DNA of 49,666 bases from Nitrospirota bacterium (GCA_023476565.1 JAMCVZ010000062.1:1-49666); one strand, 5' to 3'; numbered from the stretch's first letter, positions 10,409 through 39,750 are shown. The notes: generated by a model not told the origin, from the sequence alone. Translations and numbers: made by a program.

Positions 10409-10423
10409 TGAGTACGGGGGGTG

Positions 10424-12501: not shown

Positions 12502-12547
12502 ATTCGCCAAGCACCTCATCTCTTGATTAACCACGCACGGCATTTTA

Positions 12548-12570
12548 AGCGGGGGCAGTATGCCCCCGCT
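12548..12570 (-). other. Perfect hairpin between cytochrome and soxB
   Basis: A 10-bp perfect stem (AGCGGGGGCA/TGCCCCCGCT) with a 3-base loop lies just past the cytochrome stop. On the minus strand it is followed by UAAAAU rather than a U-run, so it is more likely an mRNA-stability or processing element, or a weak terminator, than a full stop. Confidence 0.6.
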
Positions 12571-12575
12571 CCCGT

Positions 12576-14399: not shown

Positions 14400-14421
14400 G
14401 TCCCCTCCCATACTTACCATA

Positions 14422-14892: not shown

Positions 14893-14903
14893 TTCCTGCC
14901 TCC

Positions 14904-17154: not shown

Positions 17155-17904
17155 ATGTTGAGCCTTATGGCATCAGCCTTCAGCCTCGGCGCCATGCATG
17201 CCTTGACCCCGGGGCATGGGAAAACCATTATGGGGGCGTATCTGATCGGATCAAGGGGAAGGATAATCGACGCGATTATTCTCGGCTTGATCGTTACTAT
17301 AACACACACAAGCGGCGTGCTTCTTCTCGGCGTGCTCTCTACTGTTGCCTCACACTATTTCATGCCGGAACGGATTCAGGTTTACACCTCGCTTATCGCG
17401 GGATTCATCATACTGGCTTTCGGGATCTGGTTATGTTACAAAAGGCTGGGGACGTTACTGCACGGCCATGACCATTCCCATGGACATTCGCACAGCCCTT
17501 ACCATAGTCATCACAACGATAAAAACGCCCCGCATAGCCATGAGCCTCCGCACAATCATCACCACCATGAAAACAGCCGGAGGCCGACCCTCGGTGTACT
17601 TGCGGGGCTCGGAATATCAGGCGGGATTGTGCCATGTCCCGAGGCCTTTGCGATTCTCCTCGCCGCCATATCAAAAGGTATGATTGCAGGGGGTATCGTC
17701 CTTGTCCTCACCTTCAGCCTGGGACTTGCCGTAGTGCTCATCGGGATAGGCATAGGCATCATAAAAAGCGGGGATTTCCTCCTGAAGAGAACCGGCGTTC
17801 AGAGCAGCCAGAGGATCGGGCTTGTGGTCGGAATGTTATCCTCAGCGGTGATCACCGTGCTGGGTATCTATCTGACTGCGGAGGCCTTAAAGAGGGTCGT
17901 TTAA
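17155..17904 (+). CDS. NicO/RcnA-family transporter with His-rich loop
   Basis: A 249-residue membrane protein with about six hydrophobic segments. The motif HALTPGHGKTIMGAYL near residue 15 and GGIVPCPEA near 160 are signatures of the NicO/RcnA nickel-cobalt efflux family. The central loop (about residues 102-140) contains 16 histidines in under 40 residues, a likely metal-binding segment. Distance to the preceding gene is 5 bases. In a sulfur locus a metal-export or sulfur-compound-export role are both possible; the family evidence favours divalent metal. The 3' end overlaps the convergent regulator gene by 18 bases. Confidence 0.82.
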   Translation: MLSLMASAFSLGAMHALTPGHGKTIMGAYLIGSRGRIIDAIILGLIVTITHTSGVLLLGVLSTVASHYFMPERIQVYTSLIAGFIILAFGIWLCYKRLGTLLHGHDHSHGHSHSPYHSHHNDKNAPHSHEPPHNHHHHENSRRPTLGVLAGLGISGGIVPCPEAFAILLAAISKGMIAGGIVLVLTFSLGLAVVLIGIGIGIIKSGDFLLKRTGVQSSQRIGLVVGMLSSAVITVLGIYLTAEALKRVV

Positions 17905-19224: not shown

Positions 19225-19248
19225 AAGTTCAACTCCCCATGCGCTTTC

Positions 19249-20901: not shown

Positions 20902-21776
20902 TCCTCTCTCCAGTTGATTCCCACCTTCCCGACGAGTTTCCTGACAGGCGCATACTCTTCATCCCTTGCAAGCTCAAAGCCGTTGAACGCGGGGCCCAGG
21001 CTTTTCAGTATCGCCTTCCCCTCCCGGTCCTTTGAGAGGGCGGTCAAGATCTGCCGCAGCCTGTCCTTGAGCTTCCCGTTCATATTCTCTTTGACGGCGA
21101 ACACAAAGTTCGGAACCGGCTCCGACATGGCAACATACCTGAGCCCCATTTTCAGATAGGGCGATGCGAAGGACTCCGTTACCCCGGCCGCGTCATGGAA
21201 TCCGCTCATCACGGAAAGGATGGCCCTCTTGTTGTGACCCATGACATCGATGGTAAACAGGTCCTCCTCTTTAAGCCCCGCCTCCCGTATCGTCAGTCTC
21301 GGCAACAGATTGCTCGACGCGCAATACCTGCTGCCGAGGGCAAGGGTCCTCCCCCTGAGGTCCCTGACAGTGCGAATATCGCTGTCGTTCCTCACCACGA
21401 TTACCCCCCTCTCGGCGCCGCTCCCGTTTTCTATCGCCTTCACCAGAGGAACATAGCGGTAAGCGTCATGGGCAAGGACATAGAAAACCGAACAAATGTA
21501 CGCCATATCGACCTTATGCCCTTTCAGGTCTTTTACCGCCGCCGCCCCGCTTTTCGCAACAACCAGTCTGACCCTGCGGCCGACAGCTTTTTCTATATAC
21601 CTCGTGAGAGGAAGGAAGCTCTCGTACATTGTCGCCGGAGACTCCACCGGCAGGATCATCAGCGTCAACGGTTTTTCTGAAGCCTCGGAAAAAGACGGGA
21701 TACCCCAGAAGCCGAGAAGGCCAAAGATCAAAAAAAATATTCTCATAACCATTTTCATGTGCACCCTGTTCCTCAC
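20898..21776 (-). CDS. PhnD-like periplasmic binding protein, probably a sensor partner
   Basis: A 292-residue protein with a signal peptide (about residues 1-32) and a PhnD/phosphonate-type substrate-binding fold: PLTRYIEKAVGRRVRLVV, DMAYICSVFYVLAHD and DLRGRTLALGSRYCASSNLLPRL. No ABC transporter permease or ATPase gene is near. The 4-base overlap with the histidine kinase suggests it binds a periplasmic ligand and reports to that kinase, as TorT-like and other binding-protein/kinase pairs do. The ligand could be a sulfur oxyanion, given the locus; this is inference. Confidence 0.87.
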   Translation of the reverse strand: MRNRVHMKMVMRIFFLIFGLLGFWGIPSFSEASEKPLTLMILPVESPATMYESFLPLTRYIEKAVGRRVRLVVAKSGAAAVKDLKGHKVDMAYICSVFYVLAHDAYRYVPLVKAIENGSGAERGVIVVRNDSDIRTVRDLRGRTLALGSRYCASSNLLPRLTIREAGLKEEDLFTIDVMGHNKRAILSVMSGFHDAAGVTESFASPYLKMGLRYVAMSEPVPNFVFAVKENMNGKLKDRLRQILTALSKDREGKAILKSLGPAFNGFELARDEEYAPVRKLVGKVGINWREE

Positions 21777-26517: not shown

Positions 26518-26524
26518 AGTGAAG

Positions 26525-27643
26525 ATGGCTGAGCAGCCCGGCTTTACCCACATCGTTTTTTTGAACCTTTTAATAGGTGTAATACTGGGGATCGTCTTTC
26601 ACCGGTCCGATTTCTGTATGGCGGGGATGTTCCGTGATATGTTCCTGTTCAAACAGACCTTCATGGTCAGGATCATCGTGCTGCAAGTTGTTGTTACCAT
26701 GATCCTGTTTCTCATTGCAAAAGACCTCAGGCTCATTCAGCTCTACCCGCCTCCAAACCTCTCTTTTGCATCTTCAGGCACCCTGATCGGCGGAGTGGTG
26801 TTCGGGATGGGAATGGTATTGGCAGGGGGATGCGTTATCGGGACCCTCTATAAAATGGGGGCCGGGAGCATTCCCAGCGTGATCGCATTCGGGGGTCTCA
26901 TCATCGGAAGCGGGCTCTATGCGGAATTACATCCCCTCTGGAAGCACATTACGGAGAAAACCGTCATCTCCAGGGCCATACTCCTGCCCCAGCTTCCAAA
27001 CGGCCGTTTTCTCCTGCCTGCCGTACTGTTCACAGCATCCCTGCTCATTCTCAGGTGGGTGCGTCTCGGGATGCTCTCACAGAGATCATATGCGGAGGGG
27101 TATATCCTTCACTGGAAAACGGCTGTTATCGTTTCTGTGCTGAACCTGGCGGTTTACATAAGCTCTGAAACGCCGCTAGCCGTCAGTACCGGGTACGCAA
27201 AGATGGCCGCGTACATAGAAAGGTTGCTCATGCCCGGACATTATGAAGCTTTATCGTTCTTTAAAAAAGCGTCCTTCTCCGTCCCCCATCCCGCAGGCAA
27301 CTCTATGATTGCCGGCGGGCCCGGCGCACAGGTCGACCATATCTTTATCACTGAAGTCACGCTCATTGCCGGGGTAGTCCTTGGGGCGTTCATATCCGCC
27401 GTCTCCTTGAAGGAATTCAAATGGAAAATCTGCAACTTCCCGCCTCCCCGGCAGGCCCTTTCCGTTCTATCCGGTGGCATATTACTTGCTTTAGGTTCAA
27501 GAATGGCAGGGGGGTGCAACGTAAAATTCATTATGAGCGGCCTTCCGCTGCTCTCTATCCAGGCCCTTCTCTTTCTGGCCGGCATATCAGCAGGCGCCTG
27601 GATGGGCACTCATCTGCTGAAGCAGTGGATTATCAAAAAATAA
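26525..27643 (+). CDS. YeeE/YedE-family sulfur-compound transporter, copy 1
   Basis: A 372-residue membrane protein with about ten hydrophobic segments. Conserved Cys motifs of the family are visible: SDFCMAGMFRD near residue 27, AGGCVIGTLYK near 100 and AGGCNVKFIMSG near 330. Characterised members take up thiosulfate by relaying it along membrane cysteines. A tusA-like gene follows 14 bases later, as in other thiosulfate-uptake pairs. Start: ATG at 26525; an in-frame GTG is 6 bases upstream. Together with TusA and the kinase/regulator pair it makes one plus-strand unit. Confidence 0.9.
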   Translation: MAEQPGFTHIVFLNLLIGVILGIVFHRSDFCMAGMFRDMFLFKQTFMVRIIVLQVVVTMILFLIAKDLRLIQLYPPPNLSFASSGTLIGGVVFGMGMVLAGGCVIGTLYKMGAGSIPSVIAFGGLIIGSGLYAELHPLWKHITEKTVISRAILLPQLPNGRFLLPAVLFTASLLILRWVRLGMLSQRSYAEGYILHWKTAVIVSVLNLAVYISSETPLAVSTGYAKMAAYIERLLMPGHYEALSFFKKASFSVPHPAGNSMIAGGPGAQVDHIFITEVTLIAGVVLGAFISAVSLKEFKWKICNFPPPRQALSVLSGGILLALGSRMAGGCNVKFIMSGLPLLSIQALLFLAGISAGAWMGTHLLKQWIIKK

Positions 27644-27657: not shown

Positions 27658-27918
27658 ATGCGCAACAAAACGATAAGTCTTGATATCATCGGACAGATGT
27701 GTCCCGCGTGCCTCCTCCTTGCCCTGAAAGAGATCAACCGGAACAAGGGCCTCCTCAGGAGCGGCAAGGCGAACCTGATCGTCAAGACCGACCACCGCGA
27801 CGCCACGAGAACGATACCGGGCGCAGCCTCAGCAATGGGATACGCGGTTTCCGTGGCAAAGAAGGAAACTCATTACGAGATTAAGATCGAGCAAAAAAAT
27901 GAAGACGAAAACACTTAA
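27658..27918 (+). CDS. TusA-family sulfur carrier with CPAC motif
   Basis: An 86-residue protein with the TusA/SirA fold: LDIIGQMCPACLLLALKEI near the N-terminus and a central DHRDATRTIPG stretch in the position of the usual DP-x-x-D-I loop. The sulfur-carrying Cys is the first of CPAC; the family motif is CPXP, so the second position carries an extra Cys in place of Pro, which could allow a disulfide or persulfide exchange inside the protein. Likely receives sulfur from the adjacent YedE transporter. The stop overlaps the kinase start by 20 bases. Confidence 0.87.
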   Translation: MRNKTISLDIIGQMCPACLLLALKEINRNKGLLRSGKANLIVKTDHRDATRTIPGAASAMGYAVSVAKKETHYEIKIEQKNEDENT

Positions 27919-29206
27919 AGGCAAGAGCCGCCGCCCGGACGGATACGAAAAAACGCTGAAGGAAAATAAGCTGCTCCATCAGTATATCCGCAAAAAGGTG
28001 AACCAGTTGCTGACGATTATGGGGACGAAGCCCCTGAACAGCAGGGGACTGCGCGACGAGGGCATCATTGCCATCGACCCCATCGGTATTATTTCGGAGT
28101 CGTTCGGACAGGTTCTTGAGCACCTGAAAGAGAGCAACAGGCAGTTGCGGATTGCAAGGGATCATCTTCAGGCTGTTTTTGATACTGCCGGCGTATGCAT
28201 ATCCATTGTCGACCGCGATCTGAAGATACTCAAATGCAATGAGAAACAAAAAGAGCTCCTTGCAAAAAACGCCTCCGGCATCATGGGCCGGCACTGCTAC
28301 AGGGTGTACTGCGGTATAGATTCGCCGCCCCTGAGTTGTCCTGCCATAGAGACGCTGGAAACAGGCCGTCCGGTCTTCATAAAGGAGATAACCAAAAAAG
28401 GGAAGGTCTTCCAGATCGTCACCTCCCCTCTCAAAAACGGAGACGGAACCGTCGAAGGGGTTATCGAGGTCTCCATGGACATAACCGAGAAAAAGAAGGC
28501 GGAGGACGCGATGCGCCATACGGAAAAGCTCGCCTCCATAGGGCAGCTTGCAGCGGGCATCGCACATGAATTGAATACGCCGCTGGGAAACATTATCGGG
28601 TATACCAAACTTGTCCTGCAGGACCAGGCAATCGCTCAAGAGCAGAAGACGAAATTGGAGGTTATCGCTGAACAGGCCAATGTAGGGAGCAAGATCATCA
28701 GGGGGCTTCTGGATTTCTCCCACCAGAAAAAACCCGTCCTGGAAAAATTCTCTCTTAACACATTGATCAGAAGGGTCGCGGACTCCCTGCAGGACACCTT
28801 TACAGCGGGCAATATAAGAATTATCAGGAGCCTGGAGCGCGTACCCTCTCTGCAGGCCGACCCAAACCAGATAGAACAGGTCATTTACAATATCATCATC
28901 AATGCCGTCCACGCCCTGGAGGGGCGGGACGGTATCATAAAAATAAAAAGCCGCACCATGAAAAATGAAGTGGAATTCTCGATACAGGATAACGGACCCG
29001 GCATACCGAAGGCGCATATCAACAGGATATTCGATCCGTTTTTCACGACAAAACCGGTGGGGAAAGGCACAGGGCTCGGACTGTCCATCTGCACCGGCAT
29101 AATACAGGAACACGGGGGCTCCATATACGTGGAGAGCGCGCCGGGCAAGGGGGCCACCTTTACGGTAAGGCTCCCCTATAAACCCAAAACGCTCTGCGGA
29201 GGGTAA
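27899..29206 (+). CDS. Cytoplasmic PAS-domain histidine kinase (locus 2)
   Basis: A 435-residue protein without membrane segments. Order: N-terminal helical region, a PAS domain (about residues 88-200) with a Cys cluster (CYRVYCGIDSPPLSCPA), HisKA with phospho-accepting His in AAGIAHELNTPLGN, and a HATPase domain (IINAVHALEG, QDNGPGIPKAH, GTGLGLS). The PAS cysteines are suited to sensing redox state, a metal or reactive sulfur. It overlaps the tusA end and precedes the response regulator by 5 bases; the target is probably the sigma-54 promoter at 30711. Confidence 0.92.
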   Translation: MKTKTLKGKSRRPDGYEKTLKENKLLHQYIRKKVNQLLTIMGTKPLNSRGLRDEGIIAIDPIGIISESFGQVLEHLKESNRQLRIARDHLQAVFDTAGVCISIVDRDLKILKCNEKQKELLAKNASGIMGRHCYRVYCGIDSPPLSCPAIETLETGRPVFIKEITKKGKVFQIVTSPLKNGDGTVEGVIEVSMDITEKKKAEDAMRHTEKLASIGQLAAGIAHELNTPLGNIIGYTKLVLQDQAIAQEQKTKLEVIAEQANVGSKIIRGLLDFSHQKKPVLEKFSLNTLIRRVADSLQDTFTAGNIRIIRSLERVPSLQADPNQIEQVIYNIIINAVHALEGRDGIIKIKSRTMKNEVEFSIQDNGPGIPKAHINRIFDPFFTTKPVGKGTGLGLSICTGIIQEHGGSIYVESAPGKGATFTVRLPYKPKTLCGG

Positions 29207-29211
29207 GCGTG

Positions 29212-30549
29212 ATGTTCGATATCCTGGTCATAGAGGACGACCGGAGAATGCGGTCCCTCCTGAAAGAGGTACTGACCCGTGAGGGGTACTCGGTGCTCAC
29301 CGCCGGCAACGGGGAAGAGGCCCTGGATATCCTGAAGAGGAGGCCCTTTGACCTGATGGTCACCGACCTTAAGATGCCCGAAATGGATGGACTTACCCTC
29401 TTGTCCAGGGCAAAGGAGCTCTATCCTGAAAGTCTGATCATCGTGATCACCGCCTACGGGACGGTCGAGTCGGCAATTCAGGCGATGAGGCTCGGCGCCT
29501 ACGATTACATACAAAAGCCCTTCGACCCCGAGGGCCTGCTCCTGGTAGTCAGGAAGGCGTTGGATTACCAGAGGCTTATAGAAGAAAACCGCAGGCTCTC
29601 CTCTGAACTGGAATCGTGCAGGTCGGAAGAGATCATCGGCTCCAGCCAGCGCATAAGGGAAGTAAAAGAGCTTATCGAAAAAATCGCACCGCTTGATACG
29701 ACGGCGATCATCGAGGGGGAGACCGGGACCGGAAAAGGTCTCGCCGCGAGAGCTATCCATAAACTGAGCAAAAGGGCGTCAAAAAAATTCCTGAGCATCA
29801 ATTGCGGCGCCTTGACGGAAACCCTTCTCGAATCGGAGCTCTTCGGGCATGAAAAAGGGGCCTTTACCGGCGCAATAAAAAGAAAGGAAGGCTTCTTCGA
29901 GGCAGCACACGGCGGGACCCTGTTCCTCGATGAAATAAACAACGCAGGCCAGAGCCTGCAGGTAAAATTGCTCAAGGTACTGGAAGAAGGGAGGATCATG
30001 CGTATCGGCTCGACCGAATCCGTACCGGTCGATGTCCGCATTATTGCCGCAAGCAATCTCCCCCTTGAGAAAGAGGTTGCCGCAGGAAGATTCAGGCAGG
30101 ACCTCTACTACAGGTTAAAGGTCGTTACCATCACCCTTCCCCCGCTCAGGGAGAGGCACGATGATATTCCCCTCCTTGCATATCATTTCCTCGCCCGGTC
30201 CGGTGAAAGGCTCGGGAAAGATATCCAGGGCTTTACGCCAAAGGCAATGGACGCGCTCATCACGTATGATTGGCCCGGCAATGTCAGGGAACTTGAGCAC
30301 GTCATCGAAAGGGCGGTAATCCTGGAGCTGAGCAAAAAGATCGGTTTGTCCTCCCTCCCAAAAGAGATCCTGAGCCGTTCCAAAGAGTCTATAGCGCCAA
30401 AGGGGATCATGAAACTGGAAGATATGGAACGTCAGCTCATACAGTCCGCATTAAGGCACTTTCACGGAAAAAAACATCTGGTTGCCCATGCGCTCGGCAT
30501 AGGCCAGGCCACCCTGTGGAGAAAGATCAAGAGATACGATCTTTCATGA
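29212..30549 (+). CDS. NtrC-type sigma-54 response regulator (locus 2)
   Basis: A 445-residue protein: receiver (phospho-Asp in FDLMVTDLKMPE), AAA+ domain with Walker A GETGTGKG, the sigma-54 contact loop GAFTGA and Walker B TLFLDEIN, then a Fis-type DNA-binding helix pair (HLVAHALGIGQATLWRKI). GGAGGG lies before the start; a GTG at 29209 is an alternative. Three inverted repeats TTTCA-N-TGAAA begin at its stop codon and lie 120-170 bases ahead of a sigma-54 promoter, the standard distance for activator sites, so it very likely drives the operon that follows. Confidence 0.94.
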   Translation: MFDILVIEDDRRMRSLLKEVLTREGYSVLTAGNGEEALDILKRRPFDLMVTDLKMPEMDGLTLLSRAKELYPESLIIVITAYGTVESAIQAMRLGAYDYIQKPFDPEGLLLVVRKALDYQRLIEENRRLSSELESCRSEEIIGSSQRIREVKELIEKIAPLDTTAIIEGETGTGKGLAARAIHKLSKRASKKFLSINCGALTETLLESELFGHEKGAFTGAIKRKEGFFEAAHGGTLFLDEINNAGQSLQVKLLKVLEEGRIMRIGSTESVPVDVRIIAASNLPLEKEVAAGRFRQDLYYRLKVVTITLPPLRERHDDIPLLAYHFLARSGERLGKDIQGFTPKAMDALITYDWPGNVRELEHVIERAVILELSKKIGLSSLPKEILSRSKESIAPKGIMKLEDMERQLIQSALRHFHGKKHLVAHALGIGQATLWRKIKRYDLS

Positions 30550-30586
30550 AATTTCTTTCATTCTGAAATATTCTTTCATTTTGAAA
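30542..30586 (+). promoter_or_regulatory. Three TTTCA/TGAAA dyads, candidate activator binding sites
   Basis: TTTCA-TGAAA (30542-30551), TTTCA-TTC-TGAAA (30556-30568) and TTTCA-TTT-TGAAA (30574-30586). The last two are direct copies 18 bases apart; the first overlaps the regulator's stop codon. They sit about 125-170 bases upstream of the sigma-54 promoter, as enhancer sites do. Confidence 0.7.
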
Positions 30587-30710: not shown

Positions 30711-30726
30711 TGGTACGATTGTTGCT
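30711..30726 (+). promoter_or_regulatory. Sigma-54 promoter of the sulfur-relay operon
   Basis: TGGTACGATTGTTGCT matches TGGYACR-N4-TTGCW at every consensus position, with GG at 30712-30713 and GC at 30724-30725. The transcript would start near 30737, followed by AGGAGG and the ATG at 30757. Confidence 0.85.
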
Positions 30727-30756: not shown

Positions 30757-30942
30757 ATGTCCGAAGGAGTAAGAGGAGGCCTTACCTTACCTTGGCTATG
30801 GGTCGCGGTCCTCATCGCTTACCTCGCTCTGGGATTCATGCTGCCCCCGCTCGATAAGCCGTTGAGAGAATTGAGCAAAGTGAAGGCGCAGACCGAGCAA
30901 AAAAGCGATCAGAGCGGGAAGAAGGACGAGATCGTATTCTGA
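30757..30942 (+). CDS. Small single-pass membrane protein leading the operon
   Basis: A 61-residue protein with one hydrophobic segment (about residues 9-29, LTLPWLWVAVLIAYLALGF) and a charged, Lys-rich C-terminal half. AGGAGG lies 5 bases before the ATG. It is the first gene after a perfect sigma-54 promoter, so it is certainly expressed if the promoter is. I do not recognise the family. It might anchor or assemble periplasmic partners such as the GGC-tailed protein encoded next. Confidence 0.75.
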   Translation: MSEGVRGGLTLPWLWVAVLIAYLALGFMLPPLDKPLRELSKVKAQTEQKSDQSGKKDEIVF

Positions 30943-31006
30943 TGGACGCGCAGGTCCGTATGCGCAAGACGCTTTTTATCGCTTATAAAACAAGGAGGGA
31001 GTAATA

Positions 31007-31489
31007 ATGGGTAAGAGAGCAAAGACGTTTTTATGCCTAGCGGGCATTTTCCTGGGTCTTTTTATCGTATCCGATAACGGCCTGAAGGGAACGGCCCGCC
31101 ACGGGTTGTTCAACGAGGTGGAAGCAGCGGAGGCCCAGTCTGCCAGATTTGAGTGGTTTCCCAACAGGCCGGGCATCACGAGGGCGCAGGTCGCATTGGG
31201 GCGGGCCGCAACCCTCAGGTTTGAATTTTCGACCAAGGGGCTCAATGTCTCCAGAGTGAAGGTGGGGATCCCCAAAAAGTTCGCTGACATGGGGATCATC
31301 ATCGACCCGAAGGAAGTTTCCGTCAAGGGAGACAAGGCCACGTCAACGGCGATTTTTGCGACACCGCCCGGCACCCCGCTGGGGAAATTCGATCTGGTAA
31401 TCGTTGCGGTTGATGCAAAGACTGGCAAGGAAATCGGAAGGGGTCTGATCCCCTTTATGCTGCTGCCGGCAGGCGTCGGCGGATGTTAG
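31007..31489 (+). CDS. Exported beta-sandwich protein ending Gly-Gly-Cys, candidate SoxY-like carrier
   Basis: A 160-residue protein with an N-terminal signal (about residues 1-42, with cleavage likely near VEAAEA) and a domain of about 110 residues with alternating strand-like segments (ATLRFEFSTKGLNVSRVKV, KATSTAIFATPPG, KFDLVIVAVDA). The last residues are LPAGVGGC, so the only Cys of the mature domain is the C-terminal residue after two glycines. SoxY copy 2 in this window also ends GGC. I infer a SoxY-like swinging-arm sulfur carrier, though overall sequence similarity to SoxY is not obvious and no SoxZ gene adjoins. GGAGGGAG precedes the ATG. The tandem rhodanese follows 26 bases later. 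Confidence 0.8.
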   Translation: MGKRAKTFLCLAGIFLGLFIVSDNGLKGTARHGLFNEVEAAEAQSARFEWFPNRPGITRAQVALGRAATLRFEFSTKGLNVSRVKVGIPKKFADMGIIIDPKEVSVKGDKATSTAIFATPPGTPLGKFDLVIVAVDAKTGKEIGRGLIPFMLLPAGVGGC

Positions 31490-31515
31490 AAACTAAATAC
31501 ACGGGGAGGTAGCAA

Positions 31516-32523
31516 ATGAAAAGGAGTACAAAAGTTGCGTTTTTAGTGGTCTTCGCTTGTGTGCTGTTTATTTGTTCATCGGTATTTGCCGAGATATTAA
31601 TGACCACGGATGACGTCCAGGGGATCATTGGAAAGCCCGATTGGGTGGTCCTCGACTGCCGCGTAAAGAAGAAATATGATGCAGGGCATATCCAGGGCGC
31701 AATTTCCCTCGGGGACTCCTGCAGAGTGATCTTGAGAGACGGCACCCAGAGGGCTTTGCCAGCAGACAGGCTGGAAAAAATTCTCGGCGGTGCTGGAATA
31801 AGCAACGACAAGCATGTAGTGGTCTACTCAGACGGGGATATTGTCCACGCCACCGTGGGGTACTGGATACTTGAGTACCTCGGCCATGATAAAACTCATT
31901 TCCTCAACGGCGGCATAGTGGCCTGGAAACAGGAAAACAAACCGATGTCCAAAGATGAGACAAAACTCTCTCCCGCGGTGTTTAAAGCCGCTGTTCAGCC
32001 GGGGAGAATAGCCACCACCGAAGAAATATTGAAAATCGCGACAGGCAAGATCAAAAATGTTCAGCTTATCGATTCACGGAGTGCAAAGGAACACACCGGG
32101 TACGATGTCCGTGCGTTGAGGGGCGGGTACATCCCCAACACCCTCATGAACCTCTCCCACGAACTGACCTTCGACAAGAAGACAGGGAAAATACTTCCCC
32201 CTGCCGTCCTCGGCACAGAGCGGTTCTTCGGGAAACTCGACAAAAACAAACGGACCGTCTCCTACTGCCAGACAGGATCGCGCTCAACCCTTACCTATCT
32301 TCAATTGAAACTGCTGGGCTTCAAAAACATCGCCAATTACGATGACTCCTGGATAGTGTACGGGAACCACTTCGCCCCCCCCTATCCTATTGCCGACGAA
32401 CAATGGATGAACCTCGAACCCATGCAGAAAGATCTCCCGAAAATGGAAAAAGAAATGGAAAAGCTGAAGAAAGAAGTGGAGGAATTGAAAACAGCGCTGG
32501 GGACAAAGAAAGAGCATCACTGA
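31516..32523 (+). CDS. Exported tandem-domain rhodanese sulfurtransferase
   Basis: A 335-residue protein with a Sec signal (residues 1-25) and two rhodanese domains. The first has VVLDCRVKKKYDAGHIQGA and a loop without Cys (VVYSDGDIV), so it is catalytically inactive as usual. The second has LIDSRSAKEHTG and the active loop CQTGSRS (Cys near residue 256), matching the thiosulfate:cyanide sulfurtransferase type. A C-terminal coiled coil of about 30 residues (MEKEMEKLKKEVEELK) suggests oligomerisation. It probably generates or moves periplasmic sulfane sulfur, with the adjacent GGC-tailed protein as acceptor. Confidence 0.92.
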   Translation: MKRSTKVAFLVVFACVLFICSSVFAEILMTTDDVQGIIGKPDWVVLDCRVKKKYDAGHIQGAISLGDSCRVILRDGTQRALPADRLEKILGGAGISNDKHVVVYSDGDIVHATVGYWILEYLGHDKTHFLNGGIVAWKQENKPMSKDETKLSPAVFKAAVQPGRIATTEEILKIATGKIKNVQLIDSRSAKEHTGYDVRALRGGYIPNTLMNLSHELTFDKKTGKILPPAVLGTERFFGKLDKNKRTVSYCQTGSRSTLTYLQLKLLGFKNIANYDDSWIVYGNHFAPPYPIADEQWMNLEPMQKDLPKMEKEMEKLKKEVEELKTALGTKKEHH

Positions 32524-32546
32524 AGTTTTCGGCAGGGATGATCGGC

Positions 32547-33080
32547 ATGACAGAAGAGATAAGGATAATTCCGTCAAGCTCTATCGAAGAGGACCTGCTC
32601 TCCGAAGTCGAAAAATGGGTGCGGCAGACCTTCGGGGATGCCGTCACCATAGACAAGGGGGTATTGCAATCCTGCGGGGAGGCTTATGACCCGGAGAGGA
32701 AGCAGTATTCCGCACAGGAATTCCTGGACCACGCGGGCATACAGGCGGAAGACGGCATGAGGGTTCTTTGCATTACAGACGTTGATCTCTATGTGCCCGG
32801 CCTGAATTACATATTCGGGCTTGCCGATGAATTCCGCCCTGTGGCCCTCGTCTCCACGGCACGGTTCAAGAACGGAAACGGCAGGGCAACGGAAAGAACA
32901 GTGAAGACCGCAATACATGAGCTCGGGCATACCTACGGACTTCAGCACTGCAACGACCATAGATGCGTCATGTTCTTCTCCTACACCCTGTCCGATACCG
33001 ACTATAAAGGGAAACACTTCTGCGCTCACTGTCGAAAAGCCCTGGAAAAGAAGCTGCACACAATAAAAGGAGAGATTTGA
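32547..33080 (+). CDS. Archaemetzincin-like zinc metalloprotease
   Basis: A 177-residue protein with the metzincin signature HELGHTYGLQHC, then CVM and a distal CAHC, i.e. HExxHxxGxxHC-x4-CxM...CxxC, the archaemetzincin pattern with one catalytic zinc and a second Cys-rich zinc site. No signal peptide, so cytoplasmic. The ATG at 32547 has GGGATGA upstream; 32538 is an alternative. The stop overlaps the next start (TGATG). Archaemetzincins have no settled bacterial substrate; finding one inside a sulfur-relay operon suggests it processes or recycles an operon protein. That link is inference. Confidence 0.88.
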   Translation: MTEEIRIIPSSSIEEDLLSEVEKWVRQTFGDAVTIDKGVLQSCGEAYDPERKQYSAQEFLDHAGIQAEDGMRVLCITDVDLYVPGLNYIFGLADEFRPVALVSTARFKNGNGRATERTVKTAIHELGHTYGLQHCNDHRCVMFFSYTLSDTDYKGKHFCAHCRKALEKKLHTIKGEI

Positions 33081-33382
33081 TGAAACTCGGCATTTTGGTC
33101 AATAAGGATAAAAATCTCGACCATATCATCGGGATCACAGAGGCGGCAGCCGGAAAGGGCCACGAGGTCGCCATATTCGCCATGGATGAGGGGGTCAGGC
33201 TCCTCAGGGAGCCCGGCTTTGCCGGCCTCCATAAAATACAGGATGTTGCGGTGAGCTTCTGCGACCACAGCACCCATGTTTTCGGCGTTTCAAAAGACGG
33301 TCTTCCCGAAGAGATACTCTGCGGCAGCCAGTACAATAACGCGGTTATGAACCATGACTCCGACAGGGTCATAATCTTATAG
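33080..33382 (+). CDS. Small DsrE-like protein 1
   Basis: A 100-residue protein, MKLGILVNKDKNLDHIIG onward, with the alternating strand/helix pattern of DsrE/TusD-type proteins. Cysteines occur in VSFCDHS (about 62) and EILCGSQ (about 82), the latter near the usual reactive site. It is translationally coupled to the protease by a one-base overlap and is the first of three tiny proteins in a DsrEFH-like arrangement. Those complexes hand sulfur to TusE/DsrC; no dsrC/tusE is in the window. Confidence 0.75.
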   Translation: MKLGILVNKDKNLDHIIGITEAAAGKGHEVAIFAMDEGVRLLREPGFAGLHKIQDVAVSFCDHSTHVFGVSKDGLPEEILCGSQYNNAVMNHDSDRVIIL

Positions 33383-33390
33383 GGGGAAGG

Positions 33391-33660
33391 ATGGACAGCA
33401 AGAAGATAGCCGTGATTGTAAGGGACAGGCAGGCCGAAGCCTTCAGAATGAGCGTCGGCCTTACCATCCTTGAAGATACGATAGACCTGTTTCTGTGCCG
33501 GCCCTTAAAGGCCGAAGAGGAGGTTCTGGCCCAGCTTGAGGGGGTGAAAGAGCTTGACCTGAAGGTCTTTGCGACTTTCCAGGGTGCGGGACTCGAGCAC
33601 CTGACGGCAGAGGATATGGCGGAAAGACTCCTTGATTACGACCACATATTGCCTTATTGA
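33391..33660 (+). CDS. Small DsrF-like protein 2
   Basis: An 89-residue protein, MDSKKIAVIVRDRQAEAFRM onward. Its predicted fold is alternating, like DsrF/TusC: IAVIVRDRQ, SVGLTILEDTIDLFLCR. The only Cys is in LFLCRPL (about 36). Position between a DsrE-like and an even smaller protein is the basis for the DsrF-like label. It starts 8 bases after the previous stop, with GGGGGAAGG just before. Confidence 0.65.
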   Translation: MDSKKIAVIVRDRQAEAFRMSVGLTILEDTIDLFLCRPLKAEEEVLAQLEGVKELDLKVFATFQGAGLEHLTAEDMAERLLDYDHILPY

Positions 33661-33672
33661 GGAGATTGAAAG

Positions 33673-33843
33673 ATGAAGATTTTACATTTGATCATATCCG
33701 GGCCTGATGAAATATCACACAAGATCATGGAGGCACAGGGGAAAAGCCATGAGTTGAAGATTATCGATGTCCCGAAAGACGGGACCTCCTATGAAAGCCT
33801 TGTCGAAGATATATTCCATTACGACAGGGTAATCTCATGGTAA
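33673..33843 (+). CDS. Small DsrH-like protein 3 (56 residues)
   Basis: A 56-residue protein, MKILHLIISGPDEIS onward, ending FHYDRVISW. It is shorter than TusB/DsrH (about 95) and contains no Cys. GGAGATTGAAAG precedes the ATG at 33673, and it is spaced 12 bases after the previous gene. The label rests on position as third of three small genes and on its DsrE-fold-like first strand; a degenerate or accessory subunit is equally possible. Confidence 0.6.
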   Translation: MKILHLIISGPDEISHKIMEAQGKSHELKIIDVPKDGTSYESLVEDIFHYDRVISW

Positions 33844-33895
33844 GGGCGGTCGTGCCTTTCGGCAGTCTCGACAAAAAATCAAGGGAGGTAGCACA

Positions 33896-35302
33896 ATGAG
33901 TGATTTCGATTTCGGAATAAAAGGATGGTGGGATACCTGGTACAAAAAATTTTTCAGGGAGAAGTGGCCGCTCTGGATAGCAGCCATATTCATGGCGCTT
34001 TCCGGGATAATATCATACGGGATCGCCACCTGGTCTCTTGCGAGGACGGTTTCGGGGAGCAACCCTTATGACCAGGCAAAGCCCCTGGGGACATTCCTCG
34101 GGCTCAAGGAACTCGGCGGGATCATAAACAGCGCCCTCGGCAAGATCGGGCTCCCCCATTATCCGTTCAACGGGTACCTATGGCCCGACGGCAAGACCAT
34201 AAGCTATTTCGTGCAGTATCCCAATCCGTTTCTCGAGCCCACGGCAGGCACCATGCTCGGAATACTCTTCGGGGGCCTGATCGCGGCGCTCCTGGCCAAA
34301 GAATTCGCCCTCAAGGTCCCGCTCGACAGGCTCGAATACGGCCTCGCGCTTGTGGGGGGCGTTCTCATGGGGGTCGGCGCGGTGTTCCAGTTCGGCTGCC
34401 CTGTCGTGAGCACCACCAACCTCGGCGCAATGGGCGTCCAGGCGATTATCATGGTCATCGGCATGACCATAGGCTCCTTCTTCGGCGCAAAGATCATAGT
34501 CTGGCTGGAGAAGCGAAGAATAGCGCGCGTGGCATGCATGGCCGACGGCGCAGGGTATATGCCTTTGATGCATTTTGAGAAGACAAGGACTATCTGGCCC
34601 AAGATGCCTGCCCGCGCGGACGGCGGCGAGCCCGGCGGCATCAGATACCAGCCTTTCCTGGCGATAGCGCTGGTCTTCGTAATGGCGCTTGTGCTGTTCC
34701 GCTTCACCAGCATCGGCTACCCCGCGCTTTCAATGTCGTTTCTGGCCGCGACGCTCACGGGTTTTGCCATGCAGAGGGGGGGCATGTGCTTTGCCTATGC
34801 CTACCGTGAACCTTTCCTGACGGGATTCGGCGACATGTCGCGCGCGATGGCGCTCCTCTACGCGCTGCTCGTGATCGGCTTCCTGCCGTTCAAACTCCTC
34901 GGTTCCGTATCCCCGGATATCGCCTACGCCGAGATCTTCGCCATCAGCCCAGCCGGCATAGGGATATTAATAGGCTCGGTGCTCTTCGGCATCGGGATGG
35001 CGCTCAACGGGGCATGTGTAAGCGACAGCCTCTGGAGGACCGCGGAGGGGCAGGTGAAAATATGGGTGGGCCTCATCACGCTTATCTGCATTTCCTCGTG
35101 GCTGTTCCCGATGAGAGAGGAGCCGTGGTTCAAGACCATCTTTGCGCCGTACGGTTCAAAGAATATCAGGGATGTCTATCTGCCCCAGATATTCGGAAGT
35201 TACCCTGTGGCGGTTATTTTCACCATAAGCATAATACTGCTGTGGGCGCTCTTCATGACGTGGTTCTCCGGCAGGACATTCAAAAAATATATGGAAGGTT
35301 AA
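33896..35302 (+). CDS. YeeE/YedE-family sulfur-compound transporter, copy 2
   Basis: A 468-residue membrane protein, larger than copy 1, with two repeats of membrane segments. Cys motifs: FQFGCPVVSTTN near residue 165, QRGGMCFAYA near 300 and LNGACVSDSLWR near 375. The conserved Cys residues relay thiosulfate or sulfane sulfur in characterised relatives. A tusA gene follows 12 bases later, repeating the YedE-TusA pairing seen at 26525. AGGGAGGT lies before the ATG. It is the transport step of the sigma-54 operon. Confidence 0.92.
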   Translation: MSDFDFGIKGWWDTWYKKFFREKWPLWIAAIFMALSGIISYGIATWSLARTVSGSNPYDQAKPLGTFLGLKELGGIINSALGKIGLPHYPFNGYLWPDGKTISYFVQYPNPFLEPTAGTMLGILFGGLIAALLAKEFALKVPLDRLEYGLALVGGVLMGVGAVFQFGCPVVSTTNLGAMGVQAIIMVIGMTIGSFFGAKIIVWLEKRRIARVACMADGAGYMPLMHFEKTRTIWPKMPARADGGEPGGIRYQPFLAIALVFVMALVLFRFTSIGYPALSMSFLAATLTGFAMQRGGMCFAYAYREPFLTGFGDMSRAMALLYALLVIGFLPFKLLGSVSPDIAYAEIFAISPAGIGILIGSVLFGIGMALNGACVSDSLWRTAEGQVKIWVGLITLICISSWLFPMREEPWFKTIFAPYGSKNIRDVYLPQIFGSYPVAVIFTISIILLWALFMTWFSGRTFKKYMEG

Positions 35303-35314
35303 AGGGAGGTTTCA

Positions 35315-35551
35315 ATGTCAACCGAAATCAAAGCTGATAAAGTACTCGATGTGAAGGGCCTGGTATGCCCGAGGCCTATGGTCATGACCATGAACACGCT
35401 GAAGGCCATGGATAAGGGGCAGGTCATCCACGTTATTGCCAATGACAGCAGCACGAAGCACAGCATACCCGCTCTCTGTGAGAGGGCCGGTTACAAGCTG
35501 GTTGAGACGAAAGAAGAAGGGGGCACGTTCACGTTTATCATACAAAAATAG
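35315..35551 (+). CDS. tusA: TusA-family sulfur carrier, canonical CPRP
   Basis: A 78-residue TusA-like protein: LDVKGLVCPRPMVMTMNTLK with the carrier Cys in CPRP, and the DSSTKHSIPALCERAGYKL half. It has a second Cys in PALCER, as do several YedE-linked TusA proteins. It receives sulfur in the cytoplasm, presumably from the transporter encoded upstream. GGGAGGT sits before the ATG. Compared with the TusA at 27658 (CPAC) it keeps the family motif. Confidence 0.93.
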   Translation: MSTEIKADKVLDVKGLVCPRPMVMTMNTLKAMDKGQVIHVIANDSSTKHSIPALCERAGYKLVETKEEGGTFTFIIQK

Positions 35552-35563
35552 GAGGAGGCATCC

Positions 35564-36022
35564 ATGTACAAGCATATCCTCGTACCGACAGACGGCTCGG
35601 AGCTGTCGGAAAAGGCGATCAAAAGCGCCGTCAGTCTTGCGAAAGCGTTGAATGCCCGTCTGACAGGGCTGTTTGTCATACCGAAACCCTCTCCCGGTGA
35701 CATTTGGGATGTATGGACACCCGGGGATAGCGACGACGCGAAAAAATTCAGGACTAAATTCGAAGAGTCCTTCCGGTGCGCGGCTGAGCGTCATCTCTCG
35801 GTGATCAAACAGGCTGCACAGGAGGCCGGCATAACCTGTGAATGCCTCTTCGTAACAGGAGACCTCCCTTCCGAGGACATCCTGAAGGCGGCTGAGGACA
35901 GGGGTTGTGACCTCATCATGATGGCATCACACGGCAGGACCGGAATTAAGGGCACGCTCCTCGGAAGCGTGACAATGAAAGTGCTGGGGAATACTAAAAT
36001 TCCCGTTCTGGTGCATCGCTGA
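35564..36022 (+). CDS. Universal stress protein (UspA family, ATP-binding type)
   Basis: A 152-residue single-domain Usp: MYKHILVPTDGSELSEKA at the start, and the ATP-binding signature SHGRTGIKGTLLGSVT (G-x2-G-x9-G-S pattern) at the end. It has Cys residues at FRCAAE, TCEC and RGCD, more than usual. It is the last gene of the sulfur-relay operon, 12 bases after tusA and followed by a hairpin at 36059-36090. The role is probably stress-linked signalling rather than sulfur chemistry. Confidence 0.92.
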   Translation: MYKHILVPTDGSELSEKAIKSAVSLAKALNARLTGLFVIPKPSPGDIWDVWTPGDSDDAKKFRTKFEESFRCAAERHLSVIKQAAQEAGITCECLFVTGDLPSEDILKAAEDRGCDLIMMASHGRTGIKGTLLGSVTMKVLGNTKIPVLVHR

Positions 36023-36262: not shown

Positions 36263-36652
36263 GTGATAATAAAGCTTCCCGTCAAGACTAAAGAGTTCTA
36301 CCCCGGCTACCTGAGCGAGATACTTATAGCAATCTTCCTCACCCTGTGGATCGTGTTTATCCTTGCAATGCTCTTTCCACCGTCCCTCGGCTGGGAAATA
36401 AACTTTATATCGCCCTATCAGCCGAAGCCTGAATGGTATTTCCTCTGGTTATACCAGGCAGTGCGGTATTTCCCCGGGAAGTGGACATTTATAGGCACTG
36501 TAGCGGTCCCCCTCCTCGCCGTGGCGCTTGCACTCTGCATCCCCTGCATCGACCGCGGGACCGCCGCCTCCGGAAGAATTGCCGCTGTTTGTTTTACTCT
36601 TCTCCTGGGCGGTTTCCTTATACTCACCTTGATCCCTGTCCTGGCGCCGTGA
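36263..36652 (+). CDS. Cytochrome b subunit IV-like protein (petD-like)
   Basis: A 129-residue membrane protein with three hydrophobic segments (about 19-38, 74-92 and 107-127). The quinol-site motif PEWY is at residues 56-59 within QPKPEWYFLWLYQAV. This is the C-terminal half of cytochrome b, split off as in b6f complexes. It starts at GTG with AAAGGG upstream and overlaps the Rieske start (TGATG). It precedes rather than follows the petB-like gene, an unusual order. Confidence 0.9.
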   Translation: MIIKLPVKTKEFYPGYLSEILIAIFLTLWIVFILAMLFPPSLGWEINFISPYQPKPEWYFLWLYQAVRYFPGKWTFIGTVAVPLLAVALALCIPCIDRGTAASGRIAAVCFTLLLGGFLILTLIPVLAP

Positions 36653-37116
36653 TGGGCCGCTTTTATCAAGATACAAGGAGGCGGTTCTTAAAGCGTCTCG
36701 TAAAGGGCGGCTTTACGCTCCTCGCCTCCCTCTTCGGGATCACCGCTGCAGGATTCCTCTATCCTTCAGAGGTGAAGAAACGGACAACAAAGTTTTTCTA
36801 CCTGTTGAATGAGGATGATTTGCCGAAAGAGGGAGTAAAAAAAATGGAGTTGGCGTATGAGCATGAGCAAAGGGCAATGGTCCTCAGGGTCTTTGTGGTA
36901 TGTAATGCCGGAGAAACCTTTGCCCTCTCGTCCGTATGCAGCCACCTCGGATGTCTTGTGGACTGGTCGAGGAGCAAGAAGCGGTTCCTCTGCCCCTGCC
37001 ACGGGGGAAGCTATGACATCGAAGGCCGCGTTCTGTCAGGCCCCCCTCCCCTTCCCCTCACGAGGATTCCCCTGAAAATGGAGGGGGAAAAGGTATTCGC
37101 AGGGGTTAAGGTATAA
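36652..37116 (+). CDS. Rieske [2Fe-2S] protein of the b6f-like complex
   Basis: A 154-residue protein. N-terminal basic/twin-Arg-like segment (TRRRFLKRLVKGG) and membrane anchor (about residues 19-37), then the Rieske fold with CSHLGC (ligands Cys96, His98) and CPCHGGS (ligands Cys114, His117) and the proline-rich GPPPLPL loop. It takes one electron from quinol at the PEWY site. The start overlaps the petD-like stop; the petB-like gene follows 2 bases later. Confidence 0.94.
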   Translation: MGRFYQDTRRRFLKRLVKGGFTLLASLFGITAAGFLYPSEVKKRTTKFFYLLNEDDLPKEGVKKMELAYEHEQRAMVLRVFVVCNAGETFALSSVCSHLGCLVDWSRSKKRFLCPCHGGSYDIEGRVLSGPPPLPLTRIPLKMEGEKVFAGVKV

Positions 37117-37118
37117 AT

Positions 37119-37766
37119 ATGGGCAGGATCTACGATTGGATAGACCGCCGCTTCGGCATCAAACCACCTCACAAAAATTTCCTGCAAAGGCCGGTTCCGC
37201 AAAACCTGAGCTATTTCTATTGCCTCGGGGGAATAGCTTTTACGCTCTATCTCGCAGTGCTGCTGACCGGCATGCTGCTCAGTTTCTATTATGTGCCTTC
37301 GGAAAAAGAGGCCTTCCAGAGTGTCGTAAGGATAACCCGTGAGGTTCATTTCGGAGCTCTCATCAGGGGGCTGCACAAATGGTCGGCCAACCTGCTCATC
37401 CTGTTCGTTATGCTCCATACGGTAAGGGTGTTCGCACAGAGGGCATACCGTCCCCCCCGGGAACTGAACTGGGTGGCCGGCACATTTATCCTGGTGCTCG
37501 CTTTTGCATCCGGCTTCACGGGCTATCTTTTGCCCTGGGATCAAAAGGCTTATTGGGCAACGGTCGTAGGCACCGGCATGGCTGCTACCGTCCCCTTCAT
37601 AGGGAATCACCTCCTCTATCTTGTCCGGGGCGGTCCGGAAGTCGACGGCGCCACACTGGTAAGATTTTACAGCATCCATGTCATATGGATTCCATTAGTG
37701 ACGAGTCTCCTGCTGTGGGCGCATTTCCATATGGTGAAACGGCAGGGCATCTCAGGAGGACTCTGA
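37119..37766 (+). CDS. Cytochrome b6-like protein with Cys35 (petB-like)
   Basis: A 215-residue membrane protein with four helices, the size of cytochrome b6. Haem-b ligands fall at His86 and His100, and His187 and His202, giving the 14-residue gap of b6-type proteins in the second pair, not the 13 of bc1. Cys35 in YFYCLGG matches the cysteine that in b6f attaches the extra haem ci. The Qo-side motif GYLLPWDQKAYWA is present. It should form the core of a quinol-oxidising complex with the Rieske and PEWY proteins. The multihaem cytochrome gene follows 4 bases later. Confidence 0.94.
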   Translation: MGRIYDWIDRRFGIKPPHKNFLQRPVPQNLSYFYCLGGIAFTLYLAVLLTGMLLSFYYVPSEKEAFQSVVRITREVHFGALIRGLHKWSANLLILFVMLHTVRVFAQRAYRPPRELNWVAGTFILVLAFASGFTGYLLPWDQKAYWATVVGTGMAATVPFIGNHLLYLVRGGPEVDGATLVRFYSIHVIWIPLVTSLLLWAHFHMVKRQGISGGL

Positions 37767-37770
37767 AAAA

Positions 37771-39750
37771 ATGAGGACACCGCTTGTTGCAGGCAGGCTC
37801 AGTGAATGGCTTACCCCCAGGACAGTTCTTCTTATCGGCGCAGCAGCCCTTTTTACAACCGTCCTCCTCGGTTATAGAGCCTGGATGGACACCTCCCTGG
37901 AATGTGTGCGCTGCCACGCTGACAAAAGCAGGATGGAACGGCTCAATGCGCCCTGGGCGTATATGACCGACGAAATCGTCCGTAAAGAGAGCCGTCATCG
38001 CCATATCGAATGCAGGGATTGCCATCTGGGCAACGGCAGGGCCAGGGATAAAGACAAGGCACATAAGGACATGCTCAAAATGCTCATCGTTTCCGAAAAC
38101 GGAACTCTTGAGGACCGGAAAACCGGGTATCCATACGGCCTCAGCAGGACCGGCGACAACCTCCTCACCTCGTTCCTGCCGAAGCTTTACCGGAATGGCG
38201 CGTGGTACCCGCTTCCCGTACGGAATATCCTCTGGCATGACCGTGATCCCGAAACCTTTGATTTTGATCCAGGCATCGCCGAAAAGACCTGCGGCAAGGG
38301 CGGCTGCCATCCCCGGGAGTTGGAACAGTTCAAAACATCTCATATGGGTCACAATTACCGCCAGCGCACCATGCAGACCTGGCTTATACCTTACGGGCCG
38401 CACAATTGCGGACCTTCCTTTGCAGACAAGCCCCCTTCGGGGACTCATGAAAGAACCGGTTTCGACTTCTCAAACACCCGCAGGATAGGAGAAGAGATGA
38501 ATGTCCCTTTCAGCCGCGAACAGGCGAAGGATAAACAGAAGTTCTGTAATATTTGCCACGCAGGATGCCTTGATTGCCACTACACTCCGGGCACTCCCGG
38601 AAACGGCAAGGGGTACTCTCTGCAACACGGCGGCGCCCATGTCTTTACAAGAGCTCCCCTTGCCGAGAACTGCGCGGGCTTCAGCCGCGGCAACACGAGC
38701 TGCCATCCGGGGGCAATGCACAGCCGCAGGGGCGAAACTTATCTGGGAGGGGATTACTCCGTGCCCGGAGGAATGGCTGCCGACATACACTATAAAAACA
38801 AGAAAAGGCTCTCCTGTATCGAATGCCACCCCACGGGTGAAGGCGGCATGGGACATATCGAGAGGAAGGCCTCCTGCCAGGACTGCCACCTCGAAATCGA
38901 AGCGGCGCATGCGGGGGATGTTCACAAAAATATGGATTGCGCAGCATGCCATATCAAAGAACTCCGCGGTTATCAGATAACCGTATGGGGGCCCGGACAG
39001 GTAGCTGGAAAAGACACCCCCTTCAACAAATACTCGCTTTACTACGGTACACAGTCGCCTCCCATACTTATAAAGGACCGGAAAGGCATGTGGATGCCGG
39101 TGAAGATCTGGCCCCACAGCCTCGGCAATGTAAAAAAAGATGTACTGCCGTCGAAGGGCATCCGGTTTCGATGGCCGGACGGTGAAACAAGGGATGCTTA
39201 TTACGTGGCAGGCACTTTCACCATTTCACGGGAGGGGATCCCCCCCTCTGCGTTTGACAACAAGCATCTCCTCTGGCTTGAGATCGAACAGGCCGCCCAT
39301 CCCTTCGGGCCTGCGAGGGGCTGCCCTTCCTGCCATAGCTCCTCAAAACAGCTTTCTGTTTCCCATTGGGAATTCGAAGACGCCCAGGGGGCGGAGCCCT
39401 TTACCGGGGGATACAGGATCGTAGCGGATAAAAAAGGCATACGGATCGAAAACCTCAGGGCAACCTCTCCCATAGAACTGCTGCCAGGGTACAAGCTGGC
39501 AGACTTTGCTTCATGGCTTTACCTGAAAGACAAATGGAAAATGCCCGGCGATTTCTCCATCAAAACGGACCCTGGAAAATACAGGAAGTACCATAAAATA
39601 TCAGGAGCGCTGAAAGAGAGGATAAAGCTCCTCGATGCACGTTCCGGCCTCTTTGATAAAAAGTCCCTCCGGAGATACCGGGAACTCAGGGCATCCGCCC
39701 TGCATAACCCGGAGGAAGGGCTGAGAAGGCTGGAAAAAGAATTCCCATAG
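37771..39750 (+). CDS. Membrane-anchored multihaem cytochrome c of the b6f-like complex
   Basis: A 659-residue protein with an N-terminal anchor (about residues 17-36). Haem sites: eight CXXCH (about residues 45, 81, 259, 266, 349, 369, 390 and 518), one CX4CH at 174-180 and one CX9CH at 301-312. It aligns throughout with the Sox-locus cytochrome at 12576, including a conserved non-haem Cys (213 here, 202 there) and the segment KDRKGMWMPVKIWPHSLGN. AGGAGG lies 13 bases before the ATG. It probably replaces cytochrome f/c1 as electron acceptor of the Rieske protein, or links the complex to Sox electrons. Confidence 0.9.
   Translation: MRTPLVAGRLSEWLTPRTVLLIGAAALFTTVLLGYRAWMDTSLECVRCHADKSRMERLNAPWAYMTDEIVRKESRHRHIECRDCHLGNGRARDKDKAHKDMLKMLIVSENGTLEDRKTGYPYGLSRTGDNLLTSFLPKLYRNGAWYPLPVRNILWHDRDPETFDFDPGIAEKTCGKGGCHPRELEQFKTSHMGHNYRQRTMQTWLIPYGPHNCGPSFADKPPSGTHERTGFDFSNTRRIGEEMNVPFSREQAKDKQKFCNICHAGCLDCHYTPGTPGNGKGYSLQHGGAHVFTRAPLAENCAGFSRGNTSCHPGAMHSRRGETYLGGDYSVPGGMAADIHYKNKKRLSCIECHPTGEGGMGHIERKASCQDCHLEIEAAHAGDVHKNMDCAACHIKELRGYQITVWGPGQVAGKDTPFNKYSLYYGTQSPPILIKDRKGMWMPVKIWPHSLGNVKKDVLPSKGIRFRWPDGETRDAYYVAGTFTISREGIPPSAFDNKHLLWLEIEQAAHPFGPARGCPSCHSSSKQLSVSHWEFEDAQGAEPFTGGYRIVADKKGIRIENLRATSPIELLPGYKLADFASWLYLKDKWKMPGDFSIKTDPGKYRKYHKISGALKERIKLLDARSGLFDKKSLRRYRELRASALHNPEEGLRRLEKEFP

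Follow-up and report, generated by a model that had tools for sequence, protein, structure and literature searches.

A five-gene cluster consisting of yedE, tusA, dsrE and the genes of two small conserved proteins, called the YTD cluster, has been suggested to mark sulfur disproportionation, and all five of its proteins become more abundant in Desulfolithobacter during thiosulfate disproportionation (PMC9751629). In a 2026 study, the three small proteins of the cluster were identified as DsrEFH type II, which transfers sulfur to DsrC in vitro; their genes adjoin tusA and yeeE/yedE in Desulfobacterota and Nitrospirota, and the cluster goes with reductive DsrAB (PMC13293266). How does sulfur enter such a cell, and how is it sensed? 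For cable bacteria and Desulfurivibrio, both of which have the core cluster, sulfur uptake has been stated to be unknown (PMC13293266), and the sensing of outside sulfur by regulators has been called poorly understood (PMC11582611). Two systems described elsewhere bear on these questions: in Hyphomicrobium, SoxT1A imports sulfur and SoxT1B only signals (PMC11582611), and in Acidithiobacillus caldus the two-component system TspS/TspR and sigma-54 stand ahead of sox-II (PMC6335251). Here, we describe a putative operon for the capture and import of sulfur, equipped with a sensor of its own, in a stretch of 49,666 nucleotides (the window; GCA_023476565.1 JAMCVZ010000062.1:1-49666), which is contig C23 of the 2.67 Mb genome, in 73 contigs, of an uncultured Nitrospirota bacterium. 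The comparison sample comprised 296 genomes of the phylum Nitrospirota.

An earlier note on this DNA had described positions 30757-36022 as a single unit of ten genes. Ten open reading frames are indeed present there, all on the same strand and in the order and families that had been named:

30757-30942, + strand: small protein with a single transmembrane segment, 61 amino acids
31007-31489, + strand: exported protein with an immunoglobulin (Ig) fold and the C-terminus LLPAGVGGC (the GGC protein), a candidate periplasmic sulfur carrier by its conserved tail and AlphaFold model
31516-32523, + strand: exported tandem rhodanese with the active loop CQTGSRS (Cys251); two Rhodanese domains, 2.4e-28
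32538-33080, + strand: archaemetzincin (M54) with intact HELGHTYGLQHC..C..CAHC; Peptidase_M54, 1.7e-21
33080-33382, + strand: DsrE (type II-like) with CGSQ; DsrE, 1.1e-5
33391-33660, + strand: Chp2, putative DsrE/F/H-like subunit
33673-33843, + strand: Chp3, putative third subunit, 56 amino acids, ending VISW
33896-35302, + strand: YedE sulfur transporter, 468 amino acids; Sulf_transp, 5.8e-36; Cys 168, 298, 374 and 398 conserved in 11 of 11
35315-35551, + strand: TusA with a CPRP motif; TusA, 2.6e-22
35564-36022, + strand: universal stress protein (Usp); Usp, 5.1e-32

The gaps between successive genes are 64, 26, 14, -1, 8, 12, 52, 12 and 12 bp; spacing that had been called tight or overlapping from 32547 onward is so in general, except for the 52 bp ahead of yedE. 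The small membrane protein, the GGC protein, Chp2 and Chp3 matched no Pfam or NCBIfam family, and a PHROGs search gave no matches. A terminator scan found sites no more often than in shuffled sequence, and none 3′ of the Usp gene.

The note knew of no system with the whole set, yet five of the ten genes form the published YTD, or yeeE-tusA-dsrEFH type II, cluster. Judged by gene families and arrangement, the contiguous yedE, tusA, dsrE and two small-protein genes at 33080-35551 are this already described cluster. Cys81 of DsrE, which lies in CGSQ, is invariant in nine of nine sequences, and a profile search of DsrE against sequences of the Protein Data Bank (PDB) gave nothing meaningful. The predicted model of Chp2 is alpha/beta with a predicted local distance difference test score (pLDDT) of 91.7, its best PDB match, 2pd2, being weak (E 5e-3); relatives of Chp2 occur in 99 of the 296 genomes. 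Of 16 genomes tested, 15 have a DsrC and 15 a DsrA that scores above cut-off, and the window's own genome has its dsr genes on another contig:

L139 (contig C58) 4671-17741: dsrAB, DsrN-like CobB, DsrC and DsrMK

A DVU0298-family gene as well as DsrMK lies near dsrAB, a 91-amino-acid winged-helix-like open reading frame follows dsrB, and a DsrE-family gene stands beside TusA in this locus. In genomes related to that of the window, a second dsrE-chp2-chp3 set with a short YeeE was observed (L103-L108), mostly behind a 604-amino-acid gene resembling a potassium transporter.

What is added to this core is kept with it in relatives. Conserved synteny in Nitrospirota, by which the note had proposed to check its claim, is borne out: all ten families are found together in five further genomes (G116, G067, G090, G118 and G040), which belong to two families of one order. 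The gene order in these five is rhodanese, archaemetzincin, DsrE, Chp2, Chp3, small membrane protein, GGC protein, YedE, TusA and Usp, which closes the unit. Since the small membrane protein and the GGC protein stand directly before yedE in all five and come first here, the order in the window is the exception. All five hold a second dsrE-chp2-chp3 set elsewhere, and the window's own genome has only one Chp2 relative. Nearly the whole set is present in G120, in which Usp was not found. Other genomes, among them G288, G272, G264 and G146, have the GGC protein (often with a second copy) in the company of YedE-TusA and with an archaemetzincin nearby, and the DsrEFH genes lie apart from the unit or outside the fetched stretch.

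The GGC protein has an N-terminal hydrophobic stretch followed by a conserved domain with PGxxxAQxxLG. The 14 sequences compared agree on its tail, MLLPxGVGGC, at all positions but one, and GVGGC is invariant. In the AlphaFold model, residues 46-155 form an all-beta domain, mostly with pLDDT >90, preceded by an unstructured N-terminus and followed by a short free tail. The terminal Cys160 is the only cysteine of the mature protein outside the signal region; some relatives carry one further cysteine, in FxCPPG. The fold matches are general Ig-like domains with Z up to 10, and no SoxY or SoxZ was among the matches listed in the structure search. Nor did the protein match any Pfam family at E<=0.1, and a profile search of its family against PDB sequences gave nothing meaningful. 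The "Sox-like" label of the earlier note is not supported for it by sequence: the SoxY model PF13501 finds three other places in the contig, at 14425, 8915 and 8610, and not the gene at 31007, which is flanked by the small membrane protein and rhodanese genes without a SoxZ gene beside it. A protein of the Pfam SoxY family encoded at 14422-15309 likewise ends LGGC, and therefore a GGC-type arm exists in this genome. Because PF13501 does not match the GGC protein, we suggest that it may work like SoxY, not that it is SoxY.

GGC protein matches were found in 16 of the 296 genomes, 14 of them strong. Strong matches of the small membrane protein, whose family is about 55 amino acids long, occur in 12 genomes, all of them among these 14 (Fisher 1e-19). 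In a scan of all species, the named GGC homologues are on contigs of uncultured bacteria, nearly all Nitrospirae or Thermodesulfovibrionales, in a search by two narrow peptide patterns that may miss distant relatives outside Nitrospirota. A second paralogue of the GGC type, ending CLC, adjoins the GGC gene in three loci (L040 8883-9419, L058 2-517 and L070 8558-8977), and more distant relatives (L023, L024) end in CSC.

Cys251 of the rhodanese is invariant among the relatives compared. The archaemetzincin scores 158.7 bits with the NCBIfam archmetzin model (cut-off 145) and has the motif HELGHTYGLQHCNDHRCVM...CAHC, with 16 residues between Met and Cys where 17 are expected; the M54 motif is HEXXHXXGXXHCX4CXM...CXXC (PMC3427221). 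As it is well conserved with an intact site, it is probably not a passenger. No paper joining archaemetzincin, sulfur and operon was among those searched, though an earlier mention of the extra genes may exist outside them, for instance in the original Umezawa papers. The GVGGC protein with its small membrane partner, mostly together with the archaemetzincin, appears to be new relative to the papers searched.

The unit reaches further upstream. Four genes on the same strand and a pair of dyads, which the earlier note had missed, are part of it:

26519-27643, + strand: YeeE-type (Sulf_transp) membrane protein, 374 amino acids; Sulf_transp, 6e-51; a homologue lies upstream of the kinase in relatives
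27658-27918, + strand: TusA-like protein with a CPAC motif, a probable signalling paralogue; Pfam TusA, 3.7e-10
27899-29206, + strand: soluble histidine kinase with PAS, HisKA and HATPase_c domains; PAS cysteines 113, 133, 138 and 147
29209-30549, + strand: NtrC-type response regulator with a receiver, AAA+ with GAFTGA and a Fis helix-turn-helix (HTH_8)
30556-30586: TTTCATTCTGAAA and TTTCATTTTGAAA, 18 bp apart, as candidate sites for the activator; paired dyads also in loci of relatives
30711-30726, + strand: sigma-54 promoter TGGTACGATTGTTGCT, -24/-12 element TGGTACG-ATTG-TTGCT, 11 of 12 to consensus

Cysteines 33, 105 and 333 of this YeeE are conserved in 10 of 10 sequences. Comparison of 11 loci shows CPAC instead of CPRP throughout in the TusA-like protein, and all four PAS-region cysteines retained throughout in the kinase; no transmembrane segment was found in the four switch kinases checked.

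Two TTTCAnnnTGAAA dyads and the sigma-54 site stand between ntrC and the operon, with a shorter dyad, TTTCATGAAA, at 30542-30551. The promoter is the best sigma-54 match in the window on either strand; another match, at 27475 inside the YeeE gene, was put down to chance. Sites of 9-12 of 12 positions are found in the corresponding stretch of nearly all relatives' regions examined, where the dyad pair is also repeated, some copies being degenerate. In a genome-wide search of 16 genomes allowing up to two mismatches, the dyad pair occurs once in the window's own genome and is present in 14 of the 16, the two without it being the two without the GGC protein. Most matches precede the operon, the exceptions being G288, where the match lies ahead of the YeeE gene, and G213. 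Where two genes part ntrC from the operon, as in G116, the dyads and promoter remain with the operon. Sigma-54 control, as the earlier note had it, is well supported. As far as the sequence tells, the gene set is real and conserved and very probably sigma-54-controlled, and support extends to the claim that one such sulfur-relay unit connects a periplasmic protein with a membrane transporter and with transferases of the cytoplasm.

The sensor genes extend beyond this operon. In a profile search, relatives of the CPAC-TusA turn up in 31 of the 296 genomes at E<=1e-18, and the best 13 (E<1e-41) are all genomes with the GGC protein. The YeeE-TusA-kinase triad is kept in the 11 loci compared and in 13 of 14 further loci inspected, in some of which the kinase is far larger and no NtrC was found beside it. 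In four of these 14, NtrC is followed by a rhodanese gene with one or two similar dyads ahead of it; near-sigma-54 sequences could be seen by eye after the dyads in three of the four, where the pattern search did not score them. Of 22 kinases of the module, 20 carry a CYxxxC...C-type motif. The cassettes of YeeE, CPAC-TusA, kinase and NtrC before a rhodanese gene, with similar dyads, are those at L191 (6477-11919), L193, L195 and L197, in genomes without a GGC match. No description of a YeeE/YedE-TusA-kinase module was among the literature matches, an earlier mention of the extra genes being possible in the original Umezawa papers or in supplementary files, and a dedicated sulfur-sensing switch ahead of the unit appears to be new as far as the searched papers go. 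It is tempting to see in the YeeE and CPAC-TusA pair the feeder of a cysteine-bearing PAS kinase, in a cassette reused before different sulfur operons, combined here with a GVGGC carrier and small membrane protein that load YedE without SoxYZ; for this whole picture we would give somewhat less than even odds.

An outline of how the operon might work is as follows. Small quantities of a sulfur compound would enter the cell through the YeeE at 26519-27643. The CPAC-TusA would take the sulfur as a persulfide or thiosulfonate and signal to the cysteine-rich PAS domain of the kinase, which would phosphorylate the NtrC-type regulator; this would bind the paired TTTCAnnnTGAAA sites and activate the sigma-54 promoter at 30711. 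In the periplasm, the GGC protein would act as a swinging-arm carrier. Its C-terminal cysteine would be loaded with sulfane sulfur by the exported rhodanese, and the protein, docked via the small membrane protein, would hand this sulfur to the long YedE. Cytoplasmic TusA would accept the sulfur and pass it to DsrE/Chp2/Chp3 (DsrEFH type II) and on to DsrC and DsrAB, whose genes are on another contig, with oxidation or the oxidative half of disproportionation as the endpoint. We infer the carrier role, the order of the hand-overs, the sulfur chemistry and the sensing step with its kinase signal from the motifs and neighbourhoods described above. Sulfane-sulfur capture and import feeding DsrC/DsrAB, induced by imported sulfur, is the most likely function, and we put the probability that the operon captures and imports sulfur under a sensor of its own at roughly 55%.

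Several points weigh against it. Neither Pfam nor the PDB-sequence profile search relates the GGC protein to SoxY or another known carrier, and its Ig-like fold is common. Cysteine motifs of a similar general kind are known in other PAS domains. The carrier pair is also present where the DsrEFH genes lie apart from it, so that carrier and DsrEFH may belong to separate pathways. The model gives the archaemetzincin no role, and the functions assigned to these genes are predictions from their sequences. Even so, the conserved carrier with its membrane partner, and likewise the triad of transporter, TusA and kinase, are testable candidates for uptake and sensing, coming from dsrAB-bearing Nitrospirota that are represented here by uncultured genomes only.

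Other explanations have to be weighed. In one, which seems rather unlikely, YedE would import thiosulfate and TusA would split it in a TsuA/TsuB-like manner, so that a carrier is unneeded and the GGC protein has another task. YedE and YeeE belong to the TsuA superfamily, TsuA takes up thiosulfate according to published papers, and TsuA-TsuB (YeeE-YeeD) likewise pairs a YeeE-family transporter with a TusA-family partner. However, the NCBIfam TsuA and TsuB models score far below their cut-offs for the window proteins, TusA and DsrEFH type II of the cable-bacterial cluster are not persulfidated by thiosulfate (PMC13293266), SoxT1A, which belongs to that superfamily too, is not a thiosulfate importer (PMC11582611), and the constant company of the GGC and small membrane proteins would be left unexplained.

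It is unlikely, too, that the locus is an ordinary YTD cluster whose DsrE, Chp2, Chp3, YedE and TusA act as in Desulfobacterota, with the carrier, small membrane protein, protease, rhodanese and Usp as unrelated neighbours. The published core does occur with or without the rest, as the counts for Chp2 (99) and the GGC protein (16) illustrate, but the strong matches of the small membrane protein are confined to genomes with the GGC protein, this pair accompanies YedE also where no DsrEFH genes adjoin, and five other genomes have the ten families together, along with promoter and sites. A structural or metal-chaperone role, in which the GGC protein uses its terminal cysteine to bind metal or to form a disulfide with YedE or the small membrane protein, is improbable to a like degree: Ig-like domains are common scaffolds and the paralogues ending CLC or CSC could bind metal, whereas the mature window protein has a single cysteine, most of its neighbours are sulfur-transfer proteins, and the SoxY-family protein of the window has a similar LGGC end. 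A role of the unit in persulfide detoxification or sulfur assimilation, and not in energy metabolism, is quite improbable, for although rhodanese, TusA and Usp are also known from stress and assimilation settings, DsrA and DsrC are encoded in nearly all genomes tested and the published type II cluster is associated with reductive DsrAB (PMC13293266).

Besides the proposed import operon, the window holds a Sox-like cluster at 8601-15309 (- strand):

8601-8969 and 10424-10795, - strand: SoxZ-like
8897-9481 and 14422-15309, - strand: SoxY-like (the latter ending LGGC)
9349-9831, - strand: rhodanese-like open reading frame
10843-12543, - strand: SoxB-like 5′-nucleotidase; TIGR04486, 399 bits, below the cut-off of 550
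12576-14435, - strand: multihaem cytochrome

Downstream of the operon, at 36263-39750 (+ strand), are genes for a cytochrome b C-terminal part, a Rieske protein, a cytochrome b and a 659-amino-acid CxxCH-rich protein, one or more of which are also near the corresponding unit in G288, G213, G264 and G146. NrfD/DsrP-like and DsrO/TtrB-like subunits are encoded in two sets at 528-5476 (- strand), with a small cytochrome-like protein between them, and a second NtrC-type regulator and histidine kinase adjoin a phosphonate-binding-type periplasmic protein at 17887-21776 (- strand).

How, then, does the unit compare with known systems? Like SoxY, the GGC protein is exported and has a C-terminal Gly-Gly-Cys arm, and its predicted domain is of a general Ig-like kind; it differs in having no PF13501 match, in ending at the cysteine (GVGGC) without a final GG and in having no adjoining SoxZ. 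TspS/TspR resembles the switch in that a two-component system, sigma-54 and an upstream activator sequence drive a periplasmic sulfur operon; the activator sequence there is TGTCCCAAATGGGACA, and that review contains no transporter-TusA pair (PMC6335251). With SoxT1A/SoxT1B and SoxYZ of Hyphomicrobium denitrificans (PMC11582611), the window shares two YeeE-like proteins, one by sulfur-processing genes and one by a regulator, a periplasmic protein with a C-terminal cysteine, and, as in SoxT1B, three conserved cysteines in the signalling YeeE (here C33, C105 and C333; a likeness in number). The regulator there is the ArsR-type repressor SoxR, in contrast to a histidine kinase, NtrC and sigma-54 here, where moreover the carrier is not SoxY by sequence and sulfur would reach DsrEFH/DsrC, not sHdr. 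The closest system is the YTD cluster of Umezawa et al., with which the window shares adjoining yedE, tusA, dsrE and two small-protein genes, an invariant DsrE cysteine, and DsrC and DsrAB encoded in the genome. It differs in that the five other ten-family genomes have a second dsrEFH set elsewhere, and to the published cluster the window adds an exported rhodanese, the GGC protein, the small membrane protein, an archaemetzincin and Usp, together with a dedicated sigma-54 two-component switch.

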